Shown: one piece after another, positions 34 through 14,301 of the stretch
Layout of the letters: the number at the start of each line of letters is the position of its first letter
How positions within the stretch are numbered: the first letter of the stretch is position 1
NCBI RefSeq assembly: GCF_900142575.1
Contig: NZ_FRBI01000002.1
Coordinates: 248,001-312,000 of the forward strand
Direction of reading: 5' to 3'
DNA length: 64,000 nt
Source: Actinacidiphila paucisporea
GTDB taxonomy: Bacteria; Actinomycetota; Actinomycetes; Streptomycetales; Streptomycetaceae
The notes under the pieces: generated by a model
What the model saw: the letters and a program-made list of their open reading frames with translations, nothing else
What the model was told of the DNA's origin: nothing
Databases searched by the model: none
Program-made: the position numbers and the translations under genes

Positions 34-438
34 TCAGCCGGGGGTGTTCACCATCGAAGCCGCGGCATACACCAGGTAGTCCCACAACTGCCGCTCGTGT
101 TCGGGTGCGAGGTCCAGCTCGTCGACCGCCGCGCGCATGTGGCGCAGCCAGGCGTCGTGCGCGGCCCTGTCGACCTGGAAGGGCGCGTGGCGCATCCGCA
201 GCCGCGGGTGGCCGCGCTCGTCGCTGTACGTCCGCGGGCCGCCCCAGTACTGCGACAGGAACAGCCGCAGCCGCTCCTCCGCCGGGCCGAGGTCCTGCTC
301 GGGATACATCGCGCGCAGGTCGGGGTCGCCCGCCACGCCCTGGTAGAAGCGGTGCACGAGCCGGCGGAAGGTGTCCTCGCCGCCGACCAGCTCGTAGAAC
401 GTCTGCTGCTCGACCGTGCCGTGCGGGATCTCAGTCAC
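34..438 (-). CDS. glbO: Group II truncated haemoglobin (GlbO/trHbO type)
   Basis: A 134-residue globin of the compact 2-over-2 fold, thought to bind O2 or NO or to handle oxidative and nitrosative chemistry in the cytoplasm. Visible haem-pocket residues fit trHbO: Tyr32 in FYQG (B10), Tyr45 in MYPEQDL (CD1), the proximal His84 in RMRHAPF (F8) and Trp97 in HDAWLRHM (G8). Its length matches the family. The start is GTG (VTEIPHGT), just downstream of the divergent methyltransferase promoter region. It is a single gene transcribed away from that neighbour. The family call is secure; the physiological ligand cannot be read from sequence. Confidence 0.93.
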
Positions 439-2488: not shown

Positions 2489-3832
2489 CTATTTCTTCAC
2501 CCGCACGGTCTTCGTCGACCGTGTCTCCAGGGTCATCTCGTCGGCGTCGGCGACGCGGGCCTTGAGCCGCACAGTACCGCTCGCCGCGTCGACGACGTCG
2601 ACCACCTTCGCCAGCAGCTTGGCGGTGTCCTCGTTGCCCGAGGCGCTGGCCAGCTGCACCGCGCGGCCCAGTTTGGCCGTCGCGCCGTCCATGTCACCGG
2701 ACTTGCGCGCCTCCAGGCCCTGCTGGATGACCTGGGCCAGCTCCGCCTGCCCGGTGTAGTGCGCGACCTGCGGGTTGATACGAGTGGACGCCGCCATGTC
2801 GTCGGTCCACAGCGCCCGCACCAGGCCCTGCGCCAGCACCTGCGGGGTGCCGTCGGGCTGCGGCAGCACCAGGGACAGCCGGGCGGCGAGCATCTCCTGG
2901 CCGACGCCGGCGTTGGGCACCCGGACGCACACGTGGTAGTCGCGGGACTCGTCGCCCCACGAACCGGTCGGGTAGTCGCCGGCCCGCGGACCCGCCTCGG
3001 TACGGCGGCCGGTGAGGTCCTCCACGACCGGGGCGACCTGTTTGACGAAGGCGATCTCGGAGCCCTGCGGGGTCCACAGCCGCAGGCTGACGTCCGCGAC
3101 CTCCTTGCCCATCGCCTTCTCCATCATCGCCTGGAAGTCGGCCGCCAGGCCCGCGGGGTCGGCGACGATGTCCACCGAGCCGAGCAGCGCAGAGGCGATC
3201 CCGGTCAGCTCCTTGACCTCCCAGTCGGTGCCCACACCGCGGGCGTCGCAGGTGAAACGGCCCGCGCAGATGTCGAGGGCGGACCGCAGCTCCTCCGGCT
3301 TCTCGTGCTCGTTGCGGCCGTCGGTCAGCAGGATCCCGTGGCGTATTGCCGCGTCGCCCGACGACAGCAGCTTGTCGGCCAGCCGCAGCCAGGTGCCGAT
3401 CGCGGTGCCGCCGCCGGCGGTCAGCCGCCGCAGCGCCTGCTTGGCCTGGGCGCGGGTCTCGGGACCGGCCACCGCCAGAGCGCCGTTGGCCGGGTAGACC
3501 TCGCGCGCCACATGGGTGCCGGCGATGACGGCGAAGGCGACGCCGTCGCGTATGGCGTCGATCGCGACGGCCGTCGCGTCCCGCGCGTTGCGCATCTTGG
3601 TCGGCGGATACTCCATCGACCCCGAGCAGTCGACCATGATCACCACGCCTGCGTCCGGCGCGCTCCGCCCGCCGGTCGCGGCACCGGGCAGAGGGTGGCC
3701 GCCGGTGGTGCCGCCGCCGGTCGAGGTGACCGTGACGATGGCGTTGACCTCCCGGCCGCCCTCCGGCAGGTATTCGTTCTGATAGACGTCGACCGAGAAC
3801 TGCGGCACGTTCGACTTCGAGAGAATGGCCAT
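2489..3832 (-). CDS. von Willebrand factor type A (VWA) domain protein
   Basis: A 447-residue cytoplasmic protein. The VWA domain carries a complete MIDAS metal site: DCSGS at 68-72, Thr143 in GGGTAIG and Asp171 in LLTDGRNE. The C-terminal 200 residues look like a beta-sandwich region followed by a helical tail (residues about 340-420), typical of bacterial chloride-channel-like VWA proteins. VWA domains mediate metal-dependent protein assembly. Lying between the PP2C phosphatase (56 bp upstream) and the FHA protein (90 bp downstream), it probably scaffolds the complex. No signal peptide is seen. The exact partner is unknown. Confidence 0.88.
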   Translation of the reverse strand: MAILSKSNVPQFSVDVYQNEYLPEGGREVNAIVTVTSTGGGTTGGHPLPGAATGGRSAPDAGVVIMVDCSGSMEYPPTKMRNARDATAVAIDAIRDGVAFAVIAGTHVAREVYPANGALAVAGPETRAQAKQALRRLTAGGGTAIGTWLRLADKLLSSGDAAIRHGILLTDGRNEHEKPEELRSALDICAGRFTCDARGVGTDWEVKELTGIASALLGSVDIVADPAGLAADFQAMMEKAMGKEVADVSLRLWTPQGSEIAFVKQVAPVVEDLTGRRTEAGPRAGDYPTGSWGDESRDYHVCVRVPNAGVGQEMLAARLSLVLPQPDGTPQVLAQGLVRALWTDDMAASTRINPQVAHYTGQAELAQVIQQGLEARKSGDMDGATAKLGRAVQLASASGNEDTAKLLAKVVDVVDAASGTVRLKARVADADEMTLETRSTKTVRVKK

Positions 3833-3888: not shown

Positions 3889-5142
3889 CTACGCGGGGGG
3901 GAATCCTGCCCGGGACACGGTGGCCGGGAACGGCAGCACCGCGACCGTTACGTTGTCGTGGCCGCCGCCGTCCAGCGCGACACCCAGCAGGGTGCGCGCG
4001 CTGTGCAGCGGGCGGCTGCGCGCGTCGACCGGGATCGCCTCGGCCATCTCGGCGGGCGACTCGGCGTAGTTCCACAGCCCGTCGGTGCACACCACGATCA
4101 CCCCGGGGCCCTCCGGCTGGAAGGCGGCCACGTGCGGGTCGACCTCGACGGCGTCCGCACCCAGCCAGCCGGTGATCGCGTGCGCCCGCTCGTCGGCGTA
4201 CGCCTCCGCCTCCGACATCAGGCCCGCCGCGACCATCCTGGCCGCCCATGAGTCGTCCTCGGTCAGCCGCGCGGCGGGCAGCGTGCGGTCGTCGGGGATC
4301 CAGTACGCGCGGCTGTCGCCGATCCAGCCCACCGTGAAGACCGGTCCGGTCACGACCGCGCTGACGCAGGTGCAGGCCGGGGCGTTGTGGTGCGGAACGC
4401 CGCCCGGCGGCTCCTCCTCGGCGGCCAGCGCGGTCACCGCCTCGAAGGCCGACATCAGGGCCGCGCGCATCGCGTCCTCCGCCGGGGTGCCGCGCTCCAG
4501 CGCCGCGAGCAGCGACGCGCGGCCCGCGGCGGACGCGGCCGCCGAGGCGTCGTCGGGGCGGTAGGCGGTGGACACGCCGTCGCACACCACCGCGGCCACC
4601 GCGGGGGTGCCGTCCGGCAGCGAGGCCGTGGCCACCGCGAAGGCGTCCTCGTTGCGGTGGTGGCGCAGCCCGCGGTCGCTGACCGCCGCCACGCCCTCCA
4701 ACTCCTGCTCCTGGTGGTCGCGCTGGCGCGGCTGGGCGTGCCCGCAGTGCTCGCAGTAGCCGTCGTCGTCCACCCCGCCGAGCCCGCACGCCACGCACAC
4801 CGGTCCGTCGGGCACCTGCGGCTCCTCGCGGGGGTCGGCCGGCCGGGCGCCGGGCAGCACGACGCCGAGGGCGAGGGTCCCGCCGTCGTCCGTCGCGGGC
4901 GCCCTGGCCGGCTTGGGCGGTGCCAGGACGAAGGCGTCGGTCGCCGGGCCCTGCCCGTCGGCGTCCGCCCCGCCGGACGGCTCGGGAGCGGACGGCGCCG
5001 CGGCCGCCGGCGGCGGCGCGGTCACGTCGAGACCGCAGCTCCCGCAGTAGCGGTCGTCCGCGTCCAGCGGGTCCGCGCAGTTGGGGCACAGGGACGGCGT
5101 GACGGACTGCGTCGCCCGCGCCGACTCGGGGAGTGGTGGCAT
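3889..5142 (-). CDS. Zinc-ribbon PP2C-family Ser/Thr protein phosphatase
   Basis: A 417-residue PPM/PP2C phosphatase. Two N-terminal zinc ribbons (Cys19/22/33/36 and Cys116/119/130/133) are separated by an Ala/Pro-rich stretch. The catalytic domain runs from about 150 to the end. It has the metal-binding motifs RNEDAF (Asp166), VVCDGVS (Asp188), GWIGDSRAYWI, VVCTDGLWNY and GGHDNVTVAVL, so it should be active. The ATG lies only 4 bp after the pknG-like stop codon with no obvious ribosome site, suggesting translational coupling. The expected role is removing phosphates placed by the adjacent kinase. Confidence 0.93.
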   Translation of the reverse strand: MPPLPESARATQSVTPSLCPNCADPLDADDRYCGSCGLDVTAPPPAAAAPSAPEPSGGADADGQGPATDAFVLAPPKPARAPATDDGGTLALGVVLPGARPADPREEPQVPDGPVCVACGLGGVDDDGYCEHCGHAQPRQRDHQEQELEGVAAVSDRGLRHHRNEDAFAVATASLPDGTPAVAAVVCDGVSTAYRPDDASAAASAAGRASLLAALERGTPAEDAMRAALMSAFEAVTALAAEEEPPGGVPHHNAPACTCVSAVVTGPVFTVGWIGDSRAYWIPDDRTLPAARLTEDDSWAARMVAAGLMSEAEAYADERAHAITGWLGADAVEVDPHVAAFQPEGPGVIVVCTDGLWNYAESPAEMAEAIPVDARSRPLHSARTLLGVALDGGGHDNVTVAVLPFPATVSRAGFPPA

Positions 5143-5146
5143 CTGG

Positions 5147-7825
5147 TTACACCCACGTCCTGGGGCGGAAGCGGTTGGCGCGTTCCACCAGTTCGATCCT
5201 CGTACTGCCCTGCTGGGCGAGCCTTGCCAGGACCCGGTACGAGCGTTCGAGGCCGAACCGCAGGCCCCGCTCGGTCATGTCGGCGCCGAGCACGTTCTGG
5301 GCGCCGGATGCCGACGACGGTACGCCCGCGGGCGCCGCGGTGTGCTCCCCGACACGGCCGGCGAGCACCCAGTCCAGTGCGCTGCCGAGCACCTCGGTGA
5401 CCAACTGCTCGCGCCGGTCGGAGTCCAGGCCCTGCCGTTGCAGCGCCTCGACCTGCAGACCCGCGGCCCGCAGATCGGTCAGCAGCGGCTCGTGCGGCGA
5501 ACGGTCCCGCAGCCGGGCTCTGATGGCGGCGACCCGCGCGGCCGTGTAGTGGATGGAGGACTCCGGCACCGACTCGAGCGCGGCGACCGCGCCCGCCCGG
5601 TCGCCGGACGCCAGCAGCACCCGGGCCAGGCCGAAGGCGGCGCTGACGTAGCTGTGGTCGCTGATCCACACCAGCCGGTAATATTCCGCGGCATTGTCCA
5701 ACTGGCGCAGCACCTCGGCGCATACGCCCAGCGCCAGCTTCGGCGCCGGCTCGCCGGGGAAGGCGTCGTAGACCGCGTCGAAGCTCAGCGCGGCCGTCTC
5801 GTGGTCGCCGGTGCACAGCGCGACGAGGCCGCGGTGCCACACCACCCGCCAGTCCGCGTTGTCGTCGGGGTCGGCGAGCGAGCCGAGCACCTGCTGGGCG
5901 CCCTGGGCGTCGCCGAGTTCGAGCCGGGCGCGGACCTCGCGCAGCCGCCGCTCGACCGAGTCGACCGTCGCCGACCGCAGGGCGGTGACCATCTCGCCGG
6001 GGGCCGCGGCGGAAAGCCCGGCCAGGAAACCCGCGTTGGGGTCGCCGGGGTCGACGTGCGGCACGGGCAGCGCGAGGACGGCCGCGGTGGTGTCGAGCCG
6101 CGCGACCACCGGGAGCCGCGGCGGCCCCCACGACGGGGCGGGCGCCGCCGCCGGATACCCGCCGGGGCCGGGCAGTTGCGCGGGCACCGCGCCGGGCGGC
6201 AGACCCGCTCCCATTGCGGAGCCCGCTCCCATTGCGGAGCCCGCGCCTATTGCCGAGCCGTTCGCCCCCGCGCCGTTCGCCCCGCCAGGTGCCGCGGACT
6301 GCGCACCGGCCCTGTCGCGGCGTCTGGCGGCCTTCTCCAGCGCCCGGTCGGCGCCGAGCGCAGAGGCGTCACCGGCCACCGCGCGTACCAACTCGGTGTC
6401 CACCACCCGCAGTTCCGGGCCGAACAGGGTGGACAGGGCGGGCCGCTGCACCCCGGTCTCCAGGGCGACGACCTCCCGCAGCACCCCGAGCAGCTGGTCG
6501 GACATCTCCTCGGCGGAGGCGAACCGCTTCCCGGGGTCGGGGTCGGTGGCCCGCACCAGGAGCCGGTAGAAGGACTCGTAGCGGGAGAAGACCTCGATGT
6601 TGCCCGGGTCGGGCAGGCTGTCGACGAAGACGTTCGTGTAGCCCTGGAAGTCGAAGGTCAGCACGGCGAGGGTGCGGGCGACGGTGTAGAGGTCGGAGGC
6701 GACCGACGGGCCGACCTCGGCGACCTCCGGGGCCTGGTAGCCCACCGTGCCGTAGATCGCCGACTCGGTGTCGTCCATGCGGCGGACCGCGCCCATGTCG
6801 ATGAGTTCGAGCCGGTCCTCGGTCTGGATGGCGTTGTCGACCTTGAAGTCGCAGTAGAGCAGGTTGCGGCTGTGCAGGTGGCCCAGCGCCTCCAGCGCCT
6901 CGATGGCGAAGGCGATGGCCTGCGCGACCGGCAGCGGGGCACGCCTGCCGTCGGGGGCGCGGCGCTCGTTGGCGATCTCCTTGAGCGACTTGCCACCGAC
7001 GTAGGCCATCACGATGTAGCCGTCGAGGGTGCCGGTGCGCTGGTCGAGGTGCTCCACGAAGTTGTAGATCCGGACGATGTTGGGGTGCTCGATCTCGGCC
7101 AGGAAGCGCCGCTCGGAGACCGCCGCGGCCAGCGCGTCCTCGTCCCCCGTGTCGAGCAGGCCCTTGAGCACCACCCAGCGGTCGGAGACCGCGCGGTCCA
7201 CGGCCAGGTAGATCCAGCCGAGGCCGCCGTGCGCCAGGCAGCCCACCACGTGGTACTGCCCGTGCACCACGTCGCCGGGGCGCAGCTTGGGCGAGAACGA
7301 GTACGGGTGCCCGCACTTGGTGCAGAAGCCCTCGGTGCGCCCCGGGCGGTCACCGCGGCTGCGGCCCACCGGCGCCCCGCAGTCGCCCTTGCTGCAGAAC
7401 CGCTTGCGCTCCGGCACCTCGGGGTTGGCCAGCACCGCGGCGGCCGGGTCGGGCCGCGGCACGGTGGGGACGCTGACCAGGCCGGCGCCGAGCTTGCCGC
7501 GCCCGGAACCGGCCGAGCCGCTGCGGCTGCTGCGCACCGACACCGAGCGGCCGGTGGCGGACCCCGCGAGCGCCTGCGAGAGTCGGCCCGACACCGAGCG
7601 CCGCGAGGCCCGGGAGGACGACTTCGAGGACCGCGAGGAGGTGGAGGTGGACGTACGCCCCGAGTCGGCGCCCGGCGCCCGCGGCGGCTGCGCGGGGGAC
7701 GAGGCGTGAGCGGGCGGCGCGGCCGCGGCCGCCAGAGGTGCGAGGCCGCAGGTGTCGCAGTACAGCTCGCCGCCGCCCATGTCCTCCAAGGTCCCGCCGC
7801 AGCCGGGCCGTTGGCACTTGCTCAC
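5147..7825 (-). CDS. pknG: PknG-type serine/threonine protein kinase
   Basis: An 892-residue soluble kinase with PknG architecture. An extra N-terminal zinc ribbon (Cys4/9/23/26) is followed by a Ser/Arg-rich linker (about 55-108) and the rubredoxin-like metal domain (Cys144/149/168/171). The kinase domain has glycine loop AHGGLGW, Lys221 in VVLKGLL, catalytic loop YCDFKVDN (Asp326) and IDMG (Asp343) in place of DFG. A helical TPR-like C-terminal region follows. Mycobacterial and corynebacterial PknG controls 2-oxoglutarate dehydrogenase through an FHA protein and is fed by GlnH/GlnX; both neighbours occur here. The GTG at 7825 is chosen because GAGGGGG precedes it. A GSAM repeat tract lies at 6204-6257. 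Confidence 0.93.
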   Translation of the reverse strand: MSKCQRPGCGGTLEDMGGGELYCDTCGLAPLAAAAAPPAHASSPAQPPRAPGADSGRTSTSTSSRSSKSSSRASRRSVSGRLSQALAGSATGRSVSVRSSRSGSAGSGRGKLGAGLVSVPTVPRPDPAAAVLANPEVPERKRFCSKGDCGAPVGRSRGDRPGRTEGFCTKCGHPYSFSPKLRPGDVVHGQYHVVGCLAHGGLGWIYLAVDRAVSDRWVVLKGLLDTGDEDALAAAVSERRFLAEIEHPNIVRIYNFVEHLDQRTGTLDGYIVMAYVGGKSLKEIANERRAPDGRRAPLPVAQAIAFAIEALEALGHLHSRNLLYCDFKVDNAIQTEDRLELIDMGAVRRMDDTESAIYGTVGYQAPEVAEVGPSVASDLYTVARTLAVLTFDFQGYTNVFVDSLPDPGNIEVFSRYESFYRLLVRATDPDPGKRFASAEEMSDQLLGVLREVVALETGVQRPALSTLFGPELRVVDTELVRAVAGDASALGADRALEKAARRRDRAGAQSAAPGGANGAGANGSAIGAGSAMGAGSAMGAGLPPGAVPAQLPGPGGYPAAAPAPSWGPPRLPVVARLDTTAAVLALPVPHVDPGDPNAGFLAGLSAAAPGEMVTALRSATVDSVERRLREVRARLELGDAQGAQQVLGSLADPDDNADWRVVWHRGLVALCTGDHETAALSFDAVYDAFPGEPAPKLALGVCAEVLRQLDNAAEYYRLVWISDHSYVSAAFGLARVLLASGDRAGAVAALESVPESSIHYTAARVAAIRARLRDRSPHEPLLTDLRAAGLQVEALQRQGLDSDRREQLVTEVLGSALDWVLAGRVGEHTAAPAGVPSSASGAQNVLGADMTERGLRFGLERSYRVLARLAQQGSTRIELVERANRFRPRTWV
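6204..6257. repeat. Three 18-nt tandem repeats within the pknG-like gene
   Basis: Three consecutive 18-base units of the form CCCGCTCCCATTGCGGAG (6204-6221, 6222-6239, 6240-6257; the third has four changes). On the coding strand they give a Gly-Ser-Ala-Met/Ile-Gly-Ala hexapeptide repeat between the kinase domain and the TPR-like region. The core CCATTGC(C/G)GAG recurs in the repeat tract at 40804-40911. Confidence 0.85.
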
Positions 7826-8011: not shown

Positions 8012-9292
8012 TCAACGCCGGTCCTGGGGCGGGCGCTGGGCGCCGCTCTCGGCCACCGCCTGCTGGTAGCGCTGCACGGTCCGCTCCGCCGCCGCCAGGT
8101 CGCAGGGCGCGCTCCACAGCAACCGCCGCGCCTGGTCGTAGCGTTCGATCAGCAGCGGGTCCTCGGCCATGCCGAGCCTGGCGACCTTCGCGCGGTAGGC
8201 GTCGAGCCGGCCGCGCAGCTCGGCGCGCACCGCCAGCGGTGCGGTCACCGCGGTCAGCGACTCCCTGGCCCGCAGCAGCTCGTCGTCGGCGTGCTGCTCC
8301 AGGCTGTCGAGCAGCGGCGAGAGCCGGTGCCACTGCGCGGACCTGGTGAATTCCTCGGCCATCGCGAGCCGTTCGTGCAGGACGGACGCCGGGCCGCTGA
8401 CCGCGGGCACGTCCGAGGCGAGGATCTTCGAGAGCACCTCCACGCGGGCGCTGCGCGCCTCGGTCAGGGTGCGGTCCGCGCGGGACAGCACATCGCGCAG
8501 CCGCCCGAGCCGGTGCTTCGCGTCGTCCCTGACGTGCATCACCGCCTCGACTTCGCGGCGGATGCCGTCCAGCTGCCGGCCGGCCTCCTCGTAGCGGGAG
8601 GTGTCGGGGCGGCCTGGCGCGGGCCGGGCCCGCCAGAAGGCCAGCGGGTCGGACACGGACTGCGCGCGCAGCTCGGTCAACTCCGCGATCAGCTCCTCCA
8701 GTTCGTCGCCCGACGGGTGCGCCCCCGGGCGCACCCCCACCGCGTGGGCCAGCGAGCGCACCCGCTGCGTCTCGGCGGCCAGCAGGTCGATCCTGGCGGG
8801 CAGCGCCGACCACACGGAGTCGGCGGCGGCGACGGTCTCCATGGCCTGCTCGTACCAGGTGTTCATCCGGGCGAGCAGCTGCTCCAGGCTGTACCGCTCG
8901 GTCAGCCGGGCGGGGCCCGTCAGCGAGCGGGCGGCGTCCGGCACGGCCTCGCCGGTCACGCTGACGCCCTCGCCGCGCAGCAGCTCGGTGAGCTGCCGCA
9001 GCTCGGTCTGGGTCGGCCAGCGGCGGCGGGAGCGGATCTCCCGGGCGGTGGCGAGGGCGTCGGTGTACGCCTCGAAGTGCGTCCACAGCGCGGTGATCGC
9101 CGCGTCGGTCGCCGCCCAGCGCTCCTTGGTGACGCCGGTCAGCTCCGCGCCCTCCAGCAGCCGGCGGCCGGAGTGGTCCTGGAGGGAGAGCAGCGAGGAC
9201 TCGATCGCCTCGTGCTCGGTGGCCAGCCGTGCCAGGGCACGGTCGACGTCCTCGCGTCCCATCACCGGCCCGGAAGGTCCAGCGACCGCCAT
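8012..9292 (-). CDS. Helical protein of unknown function in the PknG/GlnX/GlnH locus
   Basis: A protein of about 426 residues with no recognised domain. It is very rich in Ala, Leu, Arg and Glu, has one Cys, no signal peptide and no membrane segment, and reads as a chain of long amphipathic helices and coiled coils. Examples are REDVDRALARLATEHEAIES near the start and RLDAYRAKVARLGMAEDPL near the end. It lies 30 bp after the GlnH-like gene and 186 bp before the kinase. A role linking the membrane sensor to the kinase is an inference from position only. The start may be ATG 9292 or GTG 9295, both just after GAGAGGG; ATG 9310 has weaker support. Confidence 0.8.
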   Translation of the reverse strand: MAVAGPSGPVMGREDVDRALARLATEHEAIESSLLSLQDHSGRRLLEGAELTGVTKERWAATDAAITALWTHFEAYTDALATAREIRSRRRWPTQTELRQLTELLRGEGVSVTGEAVPDAARSLTGPARLTERYSLEQLLARMNTWYEQAMETVAAADSVWSALPARIDLLAAETQRVRSLAHAVGVRPGAHPSGDELEELIAELTELRAQSVSDPLAFWRARPAPGRPDTSRYEEAGRQLDGIRREVEAVMHVRDDAKHRLGRLRDVLSRADRTLTEARSARVEVLSKILASDVPAVSGPASVLHERLAMAEEFTRSAQWHRLSPLLDSLEQHADDELLRARESLTAVTAPLAVRAELRGRLDAYRAKVARLGMAEDPLLIERYDQARRLLWSAPCDLAAAERTVQRYQQAVAESGAQRPPQDRR

Positions 9293-9322: not shown

Positions 9323-10348
9323 CTATTTGTACAACGGCACGGGCGGCTTGATGCCCGGTAGATCGGCCTCCAGCCAGTGGTGGTAGGAGGCCTGCCACGA
9401 ACCGTCGGCACGATAGGCGTTGAGCACCTTGTTGACCCGCCGCACCAGGTCGGTGTCGGCCAGGTTCATGGCCACACCGTACGGCTCGTCGGTGACGGTC
9501 TTTCCCACCAGGTGCACCGCCGGGTCCTGGGCGGCCTGTCCGGCGCCCAGCGCGTTGTCGGTGAAGACCGCGTCGGCCAGGTGGAGTTGCAGCTGCACCA
9601 GGCAGTCGAGCTGGTTGGCCACCAGCATCACGTCGGCACCGTGGCGGTCGCCCTGCAACTTCTTCTGGCCCGTCGAACCCGTCGCGGTGCAGACCGTCCT
9701 GCCCCGCAGCGAGTCGTCGAAGCCGGTGATCGAGGACCCGCCCGAGGTCAGGATCTGCTGGCCGGCGGTGAAGTAGGCGGTGGAGAAGGCGACGTCCTTG
9801 AGCCGCTCGCAGTTGATGGTCATCGTGCGGACGACCATGTCGACCGCGCCCGACTTGATGTCCTTGATCCGGTCGGCAGTGGGCACCGTCAGGTACTGCA
9901 CCGCGTTCTCGTCGCCCAGGATGTCCTTGGCTATGGCCTTGACCAGGTCGATGTCGAAGCCGGCGAGGTCGCCGGTGGCCGGGTCGCGGAAGCCCCAGAG
10001 GTAGCTGTTCTGGTCGACGCCGACCTTCAGCTTGCCGTACTTCCTGATCCGGGCCACCGCGGCGCCCGTGGTGCTGCCCAGGTTCGGGTCGAGGCTGCGC
10101 TCGGGCTGGGTACAGGTGCCGGAGCCGTCCTGCGTCGCGGCGTACTGCGCCCAGGTCACCTGTGCGGGGCGGCCCGCGGACAGGGGCGCAGGGTCGTCCT
10201 GCAGCGGGACGAGTGCGCCGAGGAGGGCCAGCGTGCAGGCCGCCGCCATGCCCGCGACTCCGCCCCAGCCGCGCCGATGTCCGCCCACCGTCCGTCTCCT
10301 TCCCGCTCGCGCCGCGTCCGTGCGCGGTGTCGCCGGCACCCCGGTCAC
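9323..10348 (-). CDS. glnH: GlnH-like amino-acid-binding protein, membrane anchored
   Basis: A 341-residue family 3 solute-binding protein (glutamate/glutamine type). It has a single N-terminal hydrophobic anchor (about 30-49) and then the ligand-binding fold: KLKVGVDQNSYLWGFRD, GFDIDLVKAIAKDILG, and the motif TVPTADRIKDIKSGAVDMVV. In mycobacteria GlnH binds Asp/Glu outside the membrane and signals through GlnX to PknG rather than serving transport. No ABC permease or ATPase accompanies it here, which supports a sensory role. Its ATG overlaps the stop of the upstream membrane gene (ATGA, 10345-10348). The Cys at 38 lies inside the hydrophobic segment, so this does not look like a lipoprotein. 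Confidence 0.88.
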   Translation of the reverse strand: MTGVPATPRTDAARAGRRRTVGGHRRGWGGVAGMAAACTLALLGALVPLQDDPAPLSAGRPAQVTWAQYAATQDGSGTCTQPERSLDPNLGSTTGAAVARIRKYGKLKVGVDQNSYLWGFRDPATGDLAGFDIDLVKAIAKDILGDENAVQYLTVPTADRIKDIKSGAVDMVVRTMTINCERLKDVAFSTAYFTAGQQILTSGGSSITGFDDSLRGRTVCTATGSTGQKKLQGDRHGADVMLVANQLDCLVQLQLHLADAVFTDNALGAGQAAQDPAVHLVGKTVTDEPYGVAMNLADTDLVRRVNKVLNAYRADGSWQASYHHWLEADLPGIKPPVPLYK

Positions 10349-11796
10349 CGGTATTCCGACAGCCGGCGGCCGATGCCGAGCAGCGCGCCCGCCGCGGCGA
10401 TCACCGCGAGGGCCGCCGCTCCGTACGGCAGCAGGGTCAGGGCCCCGCGACCGCTGTCCGCGGCGGACTTGAACTCGTCCTGTTCGTGCGCGACCGCGGT
10501 CTGCAGGCTCGTGTCGACCGCGTCGAAGCAGGAGCCGGTCGTCTGGTCCACCGTCTTGCCGCTGCTGTCCTTGCCGCCGATGACCTTGGCGACGGCCGTG
10601 GTGTAGTCCCCGGCCTTGTCGCTCGTGCGCTCGGCGGTGTGCCGGGCGCGCCAGGTCTGCACGCCGGTGATCGCCGCGTTGACGGGGGCGCTGCCCGCCG
10701 AGTCGTCCGCCAGCCGCAGCGCGTCGGCCAGCTCGCCGCCGACACCCTTGGGGTCCTTGCCGGCCAGCAGGGTCATGCCGTCGGCGAAGTTGTTCTCGTA
10801 GTCGTCACCGGACCCGCGGGCCACCAGCGTCAGGTTCTCGTCGCCACGGGCCTGCAGGACGCTGATCCGCGCGTTGTTGAGCACCTGCATCGAGCGGGCG
10901 CCGTGCGCGGCGGAATTCTCCAGCTCCGCGCGGGCCACGGTGTGCCCGGCGACGAGCCACAGCAGCACCACCGCGGAGGCCGCGCTGGCGGCCAGCATGC
11001 CGTGGTTGAACACCCGGTTGGTCCGCCGGTAGTGGCGGCGCTGAGCCCACAGCAGGGCGCCCAGCGCGACCGCGCCCAGCCCCCAGGAGACGTAAGGCAG
11101 CGCCTTGGCACGGGTGTAGTCGCGGCCGAGGCGGTCGTTCTCGATCTGGTAGAGCCGGTCGGCCGAGGACAGCAGGCCGTGGGGCTTGCGCATCTGGCTG
11201 TTGGCATAGCGCAGGTAGGCGCCGCCGACCGGCAGGCCCTGCCGGTTGTTGGTCTGCGCCGCGGTCACCAGCTCGACGTATTTGGGCAGTTGCCAGTTGA
11301 GTGCGGCGATCTCCGCGCGGGCCTGCGGGGAGCCCTCGCTGTTGGCCGCGGCCTCGGTGATCAGCTTGGAGGCGTGGGTGATGTCGTTCTCGTAGCGGTC
11401 GGAGACCTTCTCGGGCAGCTCGCCGCCGACCAGGAAGCCGCCGGTGACGGTGGCGTCCGCGTCGGCGAGCGAGCGGTAGATCTCCGCGGCGGTCGCGCTG
11501 AGCGGGGCGCTGTGCTTGACGACGTTGTCCGCCGCGGTGGAGCGGTCGGTGACCTGATACGCGGTGGTCGCGCCGAAGGCCACCACCAGCACCGCGAGCG
11601 CGGCGCCGATGATCCGCAGCCGGCCGGGCTCGGTGGTGGCCGCGGCCCGCAGCCGGGCGGCGGACTCCACCCAGGCACGCCGCCGGCCCGGGCCGGGAGC
11701 ACCGGGCGGCGGCGCGGGCACGGTGCCCCGCGGCGCGGGCCCTCCCGCGCCGATGCGCACGTCAGGGCCCGCGCTCCCGGTCGGCGTGTGCGTCAC
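10345..11796 (-). CDS. glnX: GlnX-like four-helix membrane sensor protein
   Basis: A 483-residue integral membrane protein, first gene of the run. A Pro/Gly-rich cytoplasmic N-terminus (1-60) leads to TM1 (about 60-80), then an extracytoplasmic helical domain (80-232), TM2 (233-252), TM3 (264-286), a second extracytoplasmic domain (about 290-450) and a C-terminal TM4 ending GIGRRLSEYR. The two similar helical ectodomains resemble sensory four-helix bundles. Location beside glnH- and pknG-like genes is the main argument for GlnX. The chosen start is GTG 11796, preceded by GGGGGAGG; an upstream in-frame start at 11883 lacks a ribosome site. Confidence 0.85.
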   Translation of the reverse strand: MTHTPTGSAGPDVRIGAGGPAPRGTVPAPPPGAPGPGRRRAWVESAARLRAAATTEPGRLRIIGAALAVLVVAFGATTAYQVTDRSTAADNVVKHSAPLSATAAEIYRSLADADATVTGGFLVGGELPEKVSDRYENDITHASKLITEAAANSEGSPQARAEIAALNWQLPKYVELVTAAQTNNRQGLPVGGAYLRYANSQMRKPHGLLSSADRLYQIENDRLGRDYTRAKALPYVSWGLGAVALGALLWAQRRHYRRTNRVFNHGMLAASAASAVVLLWLVAGHTVARAELENSAAHGARSMQVLNNARISVLQARGDENLTLVARGSGDDYENNFADGMTLLAGKDPKGVGGELADALRLADDSAGSAPVNAAITGVQTWRARHTAERTSDKAGDYTTAVAKVIGGKDSSGKTVDQTTGSCFDAVDTSLQTAVAHEQDEFKSAADSGRGALTLLPYGAAALAVIAAAGALLGIGRRLSEYR

Positions 11797-11983
11797 ATAC
11801 CCTCCCCCGGGTCCGACTTGCCGCCATGCGGAAGTCACGCTTGTCAGGCAGCAGTATGGCCGCAGTCGATGCCGTACCTCCACCGGCCCGGTGATCTCGG
11901 CCGGTCACTACCCGCCTCCGCCTGATCACACGCGTCCCGTACGGGTTCGGTTCCGCCGCCGCCCGATCCCTTCCGGCAGCGGC

Positions 11984-13033
11984 TCAGCCGTAGTGCGCCC
12001 GCAGGGTGGCGTGCGCCTGCGGCGGCGCCGCCAGCTGGTCGAGGCCCAGCAGGGCCGCGCCCAGCACCGGCGGCGCGGTCACCACCTTGGTCCGCGCCTT
12101 GGGGGCGCGCGCGGTGAGCCGCTCGGCGAGGGTGTCCATGAGATACGGGTTGCGGGCCGTCATCACCCCGCCGCCGAGCACCACGTCGGCCTCCTCGCCG
12201 AGCAGGTCGAGGCGGCCGAGCGCGACCACGGCGAGCGCCGCGATCTCCTCGGCCTGCCGGGCCAGGATCGTCCTGGCCACCGGGTCGCCGGCGTCCGAGG
12301 TCGCGAAGAGCACCGGCGTCAGCTCGTACTTCCGCTCGGCCGGCAGCACTTCCAGGTGCAGCGCCTCGATCAGCGCGTACATCGACCCGAGGCCGAAGTG
12401 CGCGGGCAGCGTACGGGCGAGGTCGGTCGGTTCGCCGCGGCCGTCCTCGGCCCTGGCGGCGTACCACAGCGCCTCGTCGGCCAGTCCTGAACCGCCGCCC
12501 CAGTCACCGGATATCTTGCCGATGGCCGGAAACCTGGCGGTGCGTCCGTCCGGCAGCATGCCGACGCAGTTGATGCCCGCGCCGCACACCACCGCCACGC
12601 CGCGCGGCTCGTCGACGCCGGCCCGCAGGATCGCGAAGGTGTCGTTGGCGACCCGGGTGGTGTGCGCCCAGCCGCGGGCGTGCACGGCCGCCTCCAGGCG
12701 CTGCTCCTCGACGGGCAGGTCGGCGTTGGCCAGGCACGCCGAGGTGTACGCGACCAGCGGCCGTCCGTCGCCCGCGCCTTCCGGGGTGTCGAGCCCGGCG
12801 TCCGCCGCCGCCCGCGCCACGATCTCGGCGACCGCGGCCACGGCGGGGCCGACACCGACCACGGGCGGCTGGAAGCCGCCGCCGCGGGCGGCGCCGAGCA
12901 CCCGCCCGTCGGCGGCCACCAGCGCCACGTCGGTCTTGCTGTTGCCCGCGTCGATGGCGAGCACGCCGCCGGGGACCAGCGGCGGCTGGGGGGCCCTCCC
13001 AGGCCGATGGCTCTGGGGGATGTTCAGGCCCAC
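11984..13033 (-). CDS. BadF/BadG-type sugar kinase (N-acetylglucosamine kinase-like)
   Basis: An ASKHA-fold ATP-dependent sugar kinase. The phosphate-1 loop is LAIDAGNSKTDVAL, with later glycine-rich signatures VVCGAGINCVG and GKISGDWGGGSGLADEAL, and DVVLGGGVMTARNPYL. Relatives phosphorylate GlcNAc or related sugars at O6. It is the last gene of the sugar operon. Two starts are possible: GTG 13033, inside the end of the GH4 gene and preceded by GGGAGC (349 residues), or GTG 12964 (326 residues) just before the conserved domain. I list the first because of its ribosome site. The substrate is uncertain; together with GH4 it could phosphorylate an imported disaccharide. Confidence 0.85.
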   Translation of the reverse strand: MGLNIPQSHRPGRAPQPPLVPGGVLAIDAGNSKTDVALVAADGRVLGAARGGGFQPPVVGVGPAVAAVAEIVARAAADAGLDTPEGAGDGRPLVAYTSACLANADLPVEEQRLEAAVHARGWAHTTRVANDTFAILRAGVDEPRGVAVVCGAGINCVGMLPDGRTARFPAIGKISGDWGGGSGLADEALWYAARAEDGRGEPTDLARTLPAHFGLGSMYALIEALHLEVLPAERKYELTPVLFATSDAGDPVARTILARQAEEIAALAVVALGRLDLLGEEADVVLGGGVMTARNPYLMDTLAERLTARAPKARTKVVTAPPVLGAALLGLDQLAAPPQAHATLRAHYG

Positions 13034-14301
13034 GCGAAGTGCTCCCGGTTGTGCGCGATGAGACGGTCGGTCAGCTGCTCGGCCAGGTCGTACTGCCCGA
13101 TCAGCGGGTGGGCGAGCAGCGCGGTGAAGACCCGGTCCCTGCCGCCGCGCAGGGCGGCGTCCAGTGCCAGGTCCTCGTAGGCGGTCACGTTGGCGATCAG
13201 CCCGGCGTAGAGCGGCTCCACCGGTGGTACCGGCAGCGGCTCCGCGCCGTCGCCGTTCACCGTGGCGGGCACCTCGATGACGGCGTCGTCCGGCAGGAAG
13301 GGCAGGGTGCCGTTGTTGTACGTGTTGACGACCTGGACGTCGCCGGACGCGGGAACGTGCGCGGCCCGCAGCAGGGACGAGGCGAGGTCGACGGCGGCCT
13401 CGGAGTAGAAGGCGCCGCCGCGCTTGGCCAGTAGCGCCGGCTTCTCGTCGAGCGTCGGGTCGCCGTACATCTCCAGCAGTTCCTTCTCCATCGCGGCGAC
13501 CTGCGAGGCCCGCGAGGGCGTCGTCCGCAGCTCGCGCACCACCTCGTCGTGGGCGTAGTAGTAGCGCAGGTAGTACGACGGTACGACGCCGAGGCGGTCG
13601 AGGACCGGGCGCGGCAGGTGCAGGTCGGCGGCAATGGCGTCGCCGTGCTCGGCGAGCAGCTTGGGCAGCACGTCCTCGCCGTCGGGTCCGCCGATGCGCA
13701 CCCCCCGCTCCCAGGTCAGGTGGTTGAGCCCGACGTGGTCCAGGTGCACCTGCTCGGGCGCCACGCCGAGCTTCTCGGCGAAGCGGCGCTGGAAGCCGAT
13801 CGCCACATTGCACAGCCCGACGCTTCTGTGCCCGGCCTGGAGCAGCGCCCGGGTGACGATGCCGACCGGGTTGGTGAAGTCGATGATCCAGGCGTCCGGC
13901 GCGGCCCGCCTGACCCGCTCGGCGATGTCCAGCACCACCGGCACCGTACGCATCGCCTTCGCGAGCCCGCCCGCGCCGGTGGTCTCCTGGCCGACGCAGC
14001 CGCACTCCAGCGGCCAGGTCTCGTCCTGGTTGCGCGCGGCCTGGCCGCCGACCCGCAGCTGCAGCAGCACCGCGTCGGCGCCGGCCACTCCCGCCTCCAG
14101 GTCGGAGGTGGTGACGATACGGCCGGGGTGGCCCTGCTTGGCGAAGATCCGCCGGGCCAGCCCGCCGACCAGGTCCAGACGGTGCGCGTCCGGGTCGATC
14201 AGCGCCAGCTCCTCGACGGGCAGGGTGTCGCGCAGCCGCGCGAACCCGTCGATCAACTCGGGGGTGTACGTGGACCCGCCGCCCACGACTGCCAGTTTCA
14301 T
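13024..14301 (-). CDS. 6-phospho-beta-glucosidase-like enzyme, glycoside hydrolase family 4
   Basis: A 425-residue GH4 enzyme. These use NAD+ and a divalent metal to cleave 6-phosphorylated glycosides by an oxidation-elimination mechanism. The NAD loop is at the N-terminus (KLAVVGGGSTYTPELI), the metal ligands are in GLCNVAIGFQ (Cys) and HVGLNHLTW (His), and SYYLRYYYAHDEVV carries the family tyrosines. Length is normal. The ATG overlaps the upstream permease stop (ATGA, 14298-14301). GH4 needs a phosphorylated substrate, yet no PTS is present; the adjacent kinase may supply the phosphate. Confidence 0.93.
   Translation of the reverse strand: MKLAVVGGGSTYTPELIDGFARLRDTLPVEELALIDPDAHRLDLVGGLARRIFAKQGHPGRIVTTSDLEAGVAGADAVLLQLRVGGQAARNQDETWPLECGCVGQETTGAGGLAKAMRTVPVVLDIAERVRRAAPDAWIIDFTNPVGIVTRALLQAGHRSVGLCNVAIGFQRRFAEKLGVAPEQVHLDHVGLNHLTWERGVRIGGPDGEDVLPKLLAEHGDAIAADLHLPRPVLDRLGVVPSYYLRYYYAHDEVVRELRTTPSRASQVAAMEKELLEMYGDPTLDEKPALLAKRGGAFYSEAAVDLASSLLRAAHVPASGDVQVVNTYNNGTLPFLPDDAVIEVPATVNGDGAEPLPVPPVEPLYAGLIANVTAYEDLALDAALRGGRDRVFTALLAHPLIGQYDLAEQLTDRLIAHNREHFAWA

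Follow-up and report, generated by a model that had tools for sequence, protein, structure and literature searches.

What is the role of a gene of 426 codons that stands between the sensor and kinase genes of a PknG operon, at a place where model PknG loci have none? The GlnH-GlnX-PknG-OdhI/GarA pathway is established in Corynebacterium and Mycobacterium (accessible portions of PMC9769921, PMC6069109 and PMC8546545). A direct GlnX-PknG contact via the TPR domain has been proposed (PMC8546545, accessible portion), its mode is termed still elusive (PMC9769921, likewise), and short GlnX tails are noted in the accessible part of PMC6069109. The window, i.e. the whole stretch of 64,000 nucleotides of the Actinacidiphila paucisporea genome analysed here, contains the same sensor and kinase genes on the same strand and in the same order, and between the glnH-like and pknG-like genes an additional gene that we call X. 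The first-pass annotation had suggested that its product could be the missing cytoplasmic link from the membrane sensor to the soluble kinase.

The PknG operon in the window

The operon reads glnX-glnH-X-pknG-PP2C-vWA-FHA on the minus strand. The GlnX-like membrane sensor (10345–11883) has no Pfam match and matches the genes at the GlnX place of other families' PknG loci; its start is uncertain, and three TM segments exceed a simple hydropathy threshold, compared to four in 13 relatives. X (8012–9292) is indeed wedged, as had been reported, between a GlnH-like solute-binding protein (9323–10348; SBP_bac_3, E 2.7e-27) and a PknG-like kinase (5147–7825). The latter combines rubredoxin, kinase and TPR parts (PknG_TPR with E 5.4e-87, plus rubredoxin and kinase matches) with a zinc ribbon recognised by eye; its reading frame is open to 7936, the likely start being a GTG at 7825 (VSKCQRPGC, by eye). 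When aligned with Mtb PknG (2pzi), it keeps the catalytic Lys and two Asp residues. PADLOC matches of this protein covered the kinase domain only and were taken as generic.

A PP2C-type phosphatase with an N-terminal zinc ribbon follows (3889–5142; PP2C_2, E 3.2e-11; Zn_Ribbon_1, 25.3 bits at a cut-off of 25), in which metal-site motifs are seen by eye, then a vWA-domain protein (2489–3832; VWA_3_C, E 7.4e-23) and an FHA-domain protein (1445–2398; FHA, E 7e-13) with zinc-ribbon-like Cys pairs, the zinc-ribbon matches being below cut-off. The FHA protein is a candidate PknG substrate or reader besides the known GarA/OdhI. A sigma-70/terminator scan was uninformative, with no promoter-like site and one terminator-like site versus 1.4 in shuffles.

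On the 5' side of glnX, positions 11984–14301 comprise a BadF-type ATPase domain and, by eye, a minus-strand gene of GH4 type; gene starts of similar appearance are present near X in three other loci (L166, L167 and L175). Downstream of the operon lies a bacterial-type globin gene (34–438, minus strand; Bac_globin, E 6.3e-34). Among named relatives, A. cocklensis and A. bryophytorum are nearest to the window genome (93% identical).

X and its predicted fold

X extends over 426 codons from an ATG at 9292 to a stop codon ending at 8012, and hence lies on the minus strand, which the first-pass annotation had left out. The plus strand of 8012–9292 is likewise free of stops, but relatives conserve the minus frame and the plus-strand reading was dismissed. 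Because X is present in 40 of 41 Streptomycetaceae genomes and shows a dN/dS of 0.16 versus a close relative, it is, judged by conservation, a real gene and no chance ORF.

No recognisable domain could be assigned to the X protein of the window (P0002), in agreement with the initial impression: it matches nothing in Pfam, NCBIfam or PADLOC at E ≤ 0.01 and reaches no Pfam or NCBIfam cut-off. Among 39 family members aligned over their full length (set A1), ten weakly match Myosin_tail_1 (best E 0.00029), and Phage_lysis, SMC (SMC_prok_B), Rad50 and a nucleosidase model are matched by one member each; we took all these as generic helical or chance matches. P0002 itself scores E 0.029 and 12.6 bits with Myosin_tail_1, below the cut-off of 38.1. 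TPR models gave no match for P0002 at E ≤ 1 nor for the 39 members at E ≤ 0.01, and Pfam EAD models none among the 39 at E ≤ 0.01. Assignment to an enzyme family was rejected on the negative Pfam and NCBIfam result and on a best PDB-sequence match of the X profile at E 0.085. Nor did Foldseek point to an unrelated enzyme family, finding nothing at E ≤ 0.001 for the model of whole X (best E 0.57) or of its C-terminal domain (best E 0.47).

The earlier description as stacked helices agrees with structure prediction for X alone, according to which the protein is all-helical and soluble, with no TM segment predicted from hydropathy. The best of five AlphaFold2 models of whole X (12 sequences) is nearly all helix (mean pLDDT 80.7, pTM 0.56), the remaining four having a mean pLDDT of 71–73. 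For the C-terminal domain alone (residues 226–426; 8012–8617, minus strand), five helices are predicted in the best of five models (pLDDT 91.3, pTM 0.75), with the other four at 70–75. Since these other models score only 70–75, the best scores overstate the certainty of both folds. EzrA forms the top VIA row for whole X (Z 11.6, rmsd 4.1, 177 aligned) as well as for the C-terminal domain (Z 10.6, rmsd 3.7, 165 aligned). With VIA, helical matches exceed the common arrangement only from a Z of roughly 13, and we took these rows of the predicted models as helical generalities.

The N-terminal helical region (residues 1–226; 8615–9292, minus strand) contains the best-conserved Ser/Thr of X, T55, kept in 28 of 35 diverse sequences (27 T, 1 S, 5 gaps), followed in conservation by T102 (S/T in 22) and S394 (in 21). 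T55 lies where a predicted helix begins and may have a structural role instead of being a phosphosite. A second weak X match in the window's genome (G000:C28, E 0.029; L002) was not reproduced by phmmer and was dropped.

Distribution of X and linkage to PknG

Besides X in 40 genomes, the 41 Streptomycetaceae include 39 with a PknG_TPR match; for the genus sample of 150 genomes the numbers are 148 for X and 139 for PknG_TPR. X occurred in 13 of 396 genomes of the phylum sample, all 13 with a PknG_TPR match, and 14 further genomes of this sample, from family f3, have PknG_TPR without X. We infer that f3 corresponds to the Mycobacterium/Corynebacterium-type family and g9 to Streptomyces. In the class sample (345 genomes), X was found in 73, PknG_TPR in 118 and both in 70; thirty of the 118 belong to f3, and a single one of these 30 (G676) has X. 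A Fisher test of this co-occurrence (p 5.5e-37) ignores phylogeny and was not relied on. X and PknG_TPR are thus found together in many genomes, and X stands beside PknG in several actinobacterial families besides the Streptomycetaceae.

The class scan misses weak versions of X. For 16 of the 19 non-f3 genomes that were negative for X and positive for PknG, the loci were searched directly. Five proved to have X or its C-terminal domain at their primary PknG locus (L135, L146, L149, L152 and L153) and L158 gave a weak match, while G643 has a trypsin-type version at a second locus (L165). In the f89/f90 loci L136 (which begins within the PknG frame), L141, L143–L145, L151 and L186, no X was found next to PknG. 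Five loci of other families (L140, L155, L159, L160 and L161) likewise gave no match to X, which could reflect true absence or strong divergence.

Ten f3 loci were considered (L138, L170, L171 and L177–L183), and X is absent from nine of them; one of the nine, L177, is a PknG without GlnX/GlnH. In the other eight (L170, L171, L178–L183), which have three genes each, X, PP2C, vWA and FHA genes were undetected. That model PknG loci have nothing between glnH and pknG therefore holds for these eight and for a published three-gene operon (accessible portion of PMC6069109). The tenth locus, L138 of G676, is a whole operon with X. As the same genome holds two X-less glnX-glnH-pknG copies (L182 and L183), the X-bearing operon looks like the result of horizontal transfer.

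Of the 40 X genes in the Streptomycetaceae sample, 35 have a PknG_TPR match within 5 kb. In G021, G034 and G039, X is close to a contig end and PknG is located on a separate contig; the remaining two X genes belong to G011 and G012, genomes without a PknG_TPR match. Outside the Streptomycetaceae, the class sample has 48 X places, 41 of them linked to PknG_TPR (within 5 kb). The seven unlinked places are five that precede PP2C-vWA genes (L212–L216), one on a contig that ends 192 bases after X (G536:C438) and one contig end judged from coordinates only (G718:C264).

Altogether 95 loci, most of them chosen by a PknG or X match, were compared (L140 and L204 overlap and are one locus), and 64 contain X or its C-terminal domain. 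Except for the contig-end locus, X or the domain is followed in all 64 by a same-strand PknG, PknG remnant or PP2C, with one gene intervening between the C-terminal-domain gene and the following module gene in L163 and L219. No X place with linkage worked out was shown to fall outside the PknG/PP2C gene module. The gene order of the window is shared by the Streptomycetaceae, f90 and f7, and the order X-pknG-PP2C-vWA-FHA-glnX-glnH is found in f89 and Nonomuraea gerenzanensis. As glnX-glnH can thus be at either end, X goes with pknG and not with glnH. Regarded as an accessory gene of the PknG operon, X is on the same strand as pknG, adjacent to it and conserved across genera; in L134 the two show an apparent stop/start overlap. 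In one single-contig genome a frame change splits X (L172; G009:C1:3203133-3204468), either by sequencing error or by a true break.

The C-terminal domain at second PknG loci

X carries a conserved C-terminal motif, R-x-E-L-R-G-R-L...G...A...L-W-x-A-P-C-D-L. In four loci obtained from weak secondary matches (L044–L047) a protein matches X in its C-terminal part, in all four cases directly upstream of a PknG-like kinase and a vWA gene. The second loci were then compared in 21 stretches around PknG matches (L165, L169 and L193–L211), of which L200–L203 hold the same genes as L044–L047 and L204 is a primary locus. With vWA present, 12 of 14 have an X-type C-terminal domain directly upstream, versus none of the seven without vWA. 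Eleven of the twelve domains were also recovered by an X-only profile at E ≤ 1e-3, and the one of L198 only by the mixed profile A3. Separately built alignments of the X C-terminal domain and the second-locus proteins match each other with an hhalign probability of 99.6 (E 1.8e-23); in the control, the second-locus alignment against the N-terminal part of X gave E 0.46.

The domain is common to X, trypsin-like proteins and one EAD1 protein. Trypsin_2 was present in all nine second-locus proteins tested; the N-terminal region of X is unmatched by the trypsin-type profile. At L162:4897-5694, an EAD1 domain (E 1.2e-14) precedes the X-type C-terminal domain, again directly upstream of a PknG-like kinase. 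At the limits used, no Pfam domain was recognised in other, short f90 versions (L163, L164, L217 and L219). The trypsin-type second loci contain kinase and vWA, with PP2C undetected, and most second PknG-like loci with the domain have no GlnX/GlnH match nearby. The window's genome has a second cluster of its own outside the window (L169, G000:C45:482000-498000), consisting of a protein with an X-type C-terminal domain (trypsin-like by eye), a PknG-like kinase (at G000:C45:489016) and vWA; matches to GlnX, GlnH, PP2C and FHA are absent there.

X after loss of kinase and sensor

Six genomes with PknG lost or in decay were inspected (G011, G012, G671, G703, G405 and G817; loci L166, L167, L168, L175, L192 and L225). 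No PknG_TPR match was obtained in G011 and G012 (E ≤ 1e-8) or in G671 and G703 (E ≤ 1e-10), short C-terminal pknG leftovers being present at the locus in G011 and G671; in G405 and G817, pknG is reduced to C-terminal stubs. Where seen, the leftovers derive from the C-terminal TPR part. At the loci of G011, G012, G671 and G703, vWA, glnX and glnH were undetected, and in G405 and G817 they are fragmentary or missing. Searching seven whole genomes for GlnX gave full genes in the two controls, a fragment in G405 and no match in G011, G012, G671 and G703. In contrast to the link model, by which X should be lost along with PknG and GlnX, all six genomes have X and PP2C intact and keep the FHA gene (in G817 as two matches within one 417-aa frame).

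The X frame is free of internal stops in five of these genomes, and G817 has an almost full-length match in one open frame (L225). Nei-Gojobori dN/dS of X was 0.24–0.55 in pairs including a loss genome (the five without G817) and 0.16–0.32 in three kinase-bearing pairs. Intact frames and the values of the loss pairs suggest that selection on X persists after kinase loss, perhaps in relaxed form.

Kinase-less variants are also found in f90: four loci have X-PP2C-vWA-FHA and no kinase match, of which L213, L214 and L216 also lack sensor matches and L215 retains glnX/glnH remnants. For L213 and L216, X or PP2C is split over frames, possibly by assembly error, and L214 offers just 1.7 kb upstream of X. 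L212 had been regarded as kinase-less on the basis of the TPR model, an assignment that we withdrew: a kinase with a PknG rubredoxin/kinase match and no TPR match (L212:4975-6546) lies between X and PP2C, with no GlnX/GlnH match nearby.

Widespread loss of PknG in the genus sample was likewise rejected as mostly an assembly artefact, PknG running into contig ends. This applies to nine of ten loci inspected, namely those of six of the 11 PknG-negative genomes (G740, G765, G831, G865, G868 and G877) and of three with a weak PknG_TPR match (G769, G850 and G861); the tenth, L225 of G817, is a case of true decay. The other five PknG-negatives are the loss genome G671, two genomes without X and PknG (G739 and G844), and G746 and G834 (X partial), which are not counted among the loss genomes.

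Possible roles of X

The idea that X links GlnX to PknG, docking on the TPR domain and relaying the sensor state, has several points in its favour. X is uncharacterised, helical and PknG-associated as proposed, its gene separates glnH from pknG in the window, as it also does in other families, and the GlnX-PknG contact that it would explain is the one termed elusive (PMC9769921, accessible portion). Moreover, the cytosolic loops of GlnX are tiny (TM2–TM3 9–17 aa and C-tail 7–14 aa in the 13 GlnX proteins for which four TMs are predicted). The specific link role is not supported. A link is predicted to fall with sensor and kinase, yet X, PP2C and FHA stay in all six loss genomes, which weakens this model. 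X also occurs without GlnX and PknG in L213, L214 and L216, and in L212 it adjoins a kinase without TPR match in a neighbourhood without sensor genes. In f89 and Nonomuraea, X is at pknG while glnX-glnH is at the opposite operon end, and the C-terminal domain recurs beside second PknG-like kinases that mostly lack GlnX/GlnH nearby. In mycobacteria and corynebacteria the chain functions with no X mentioned (accessible portions of PMC6069109, PMC8546545 and PMC9769921). At loci lacking X, the loops and C-tails of GlnX are just as short, and a larger cytosolic GlnX part replacing X was not seen there (13 GlnX proteins; N-terminal tail lengths hinge on uncertain start codons). We thus consider a dedicated link quite improbable; X may be a scaffold that also touches PknG.

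A dedicated regulator or adaptor of PknG, acting on its activity, folding or substrate choice, would account for the tight linkage to pknG, second and transferred copies included, and for the apparent X/pknG overlap in L134. Post-loss copies would then serve other kinases or slowly decay, with which the slightly raised dN/dS after loss is consistent. This is unlikely in view of the intact X in six of six loss genomes, where vWA, glnX and glnH have vanished or are broken, four of them (G011, G012, G671 and G703) having no PknG_TPR match beyond the short leftovers in G011 and G671, and in view of the X-PP2C operons without kinase. Still less credible, and indeed very improbable, is a structural helical protein (spectrin/EzrA-like, acting in polarity or at the septum) encoded by a mere passenger gene of the operon. 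The models of X may resemble EzrA (4uxv, 4uy3) in their long-helix, spectrin-like arrangement (Z 10.6–11.6), EzrA topping VIA for both whole model and C-terminal domain. However, both Z values are below roughly 13 and within the common helical range, Foldseek gave no better than the E values stated above, X has no PDB sequence match at E < 0.08, and hydropathy predicts neither a TM segment nor an N-terminal membrane anchor, different from EzrA. The confinement of X to the gene module, as far as linkage was worked out, also speaks against a passenger.

Since X survives the loss of kinase and sensor, it is probably a hub and not a wire between the two: glnX, glnH, pknG and vWA vanish together while X, PP2C and FHA stay. 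We propose, with about even confidence, that X is the cytosolic helical hub, i.e. scaffold or phospho-client, of a kinase/phosphatase/FHA module. Its C-terminal domain would dock into the kinase/phosphatase/FHA assembly. PknG, as one input, would phosphorylate X or a partner held on X, and where PknG is gone another Ser/Thr kinase would do so; PP2C would reverse this phosphorylation, and the FHA protein would read the phosphorylation state. The long N-terminal helices of X might provide a platform or output. GlnH-GlnX-PknG would thereby gain an in-operon output besides the known OdhI/GarA branch.

Some observations from sequence comparison count against such a hub. No one partner is common to every variant detected, because trypsin-type loci are without detected PP2C and kinase-less loci have PP2C and FHA. 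X is not found at some PknG loci (f89, f90 and other families), and the raised dN/dS after PknG loss may reflect relaxed selection.

Relation to known systems and significance

X is a new component of a known pathway and not a new kind of system. The operon differs from the GlnH-GlnX-PknG-OdhI/GarA loci of f3 in X, PP2C, vWA and FHA, and the X gene is unmentioned in the accessible portions of PMC9769921, PMC6069109 and PMC8546545. A second point of comparison are GAP1-N2 systems, in which kinase, PP2C and vWA genes are linked (Kaur et al. 2020, PMC7159879, accessible portion). In that portion an active zinc-ribbon kinase, PP2C and vWA appear as actinobacterial neighbours, and trypsin and EAD1 among the system parts. 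The kinase of the window, however, is a PknG with TPR, and the window was compared on kinase, PP2C and vWA; the same portion does not describe X or its C-terminal domain, and "PknG" has 0 occurrences in the paper. In the accessible text of the open-licence literature, we found no description of X or of its C-terminal domain.

More tentatively, and with somewhat less than even confidence, the C-terminal domain of X could represent a new type of docking domain that serves actinobacterial PknG/PP2C/vWA/FHA modules in general and accepts varied outputs. If so, the output would be a long helical platform in the amino-acid-sensing operon, and paralogous loci would use a trypsin-like protease or an EAD1 adaptor. 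Metabolic signalling through PknG would then represent a single branch of wider phospho-controlled effector systems, in which the constant core is X and not the kinase. The locus in any case ties PknG to trypsin-like and EAD1-bearing proteins, kinds that are found in predicted conflict systems.

The Streptomyces-type PknG operon thus carries a conserved helical partner together with its own phosphatase and an FHA protein. Natural gene loss has separated X from sensor and kinase, which provides a ready set of genomes. The finding bears on how GlnX talks to PknG and on PknG targets beyond mycobacteria and corynebacteria, and the X module offers an alternative output, accessible to experiment, of a pathway that in antibiotic producers is connected with nitrogen metabolism.
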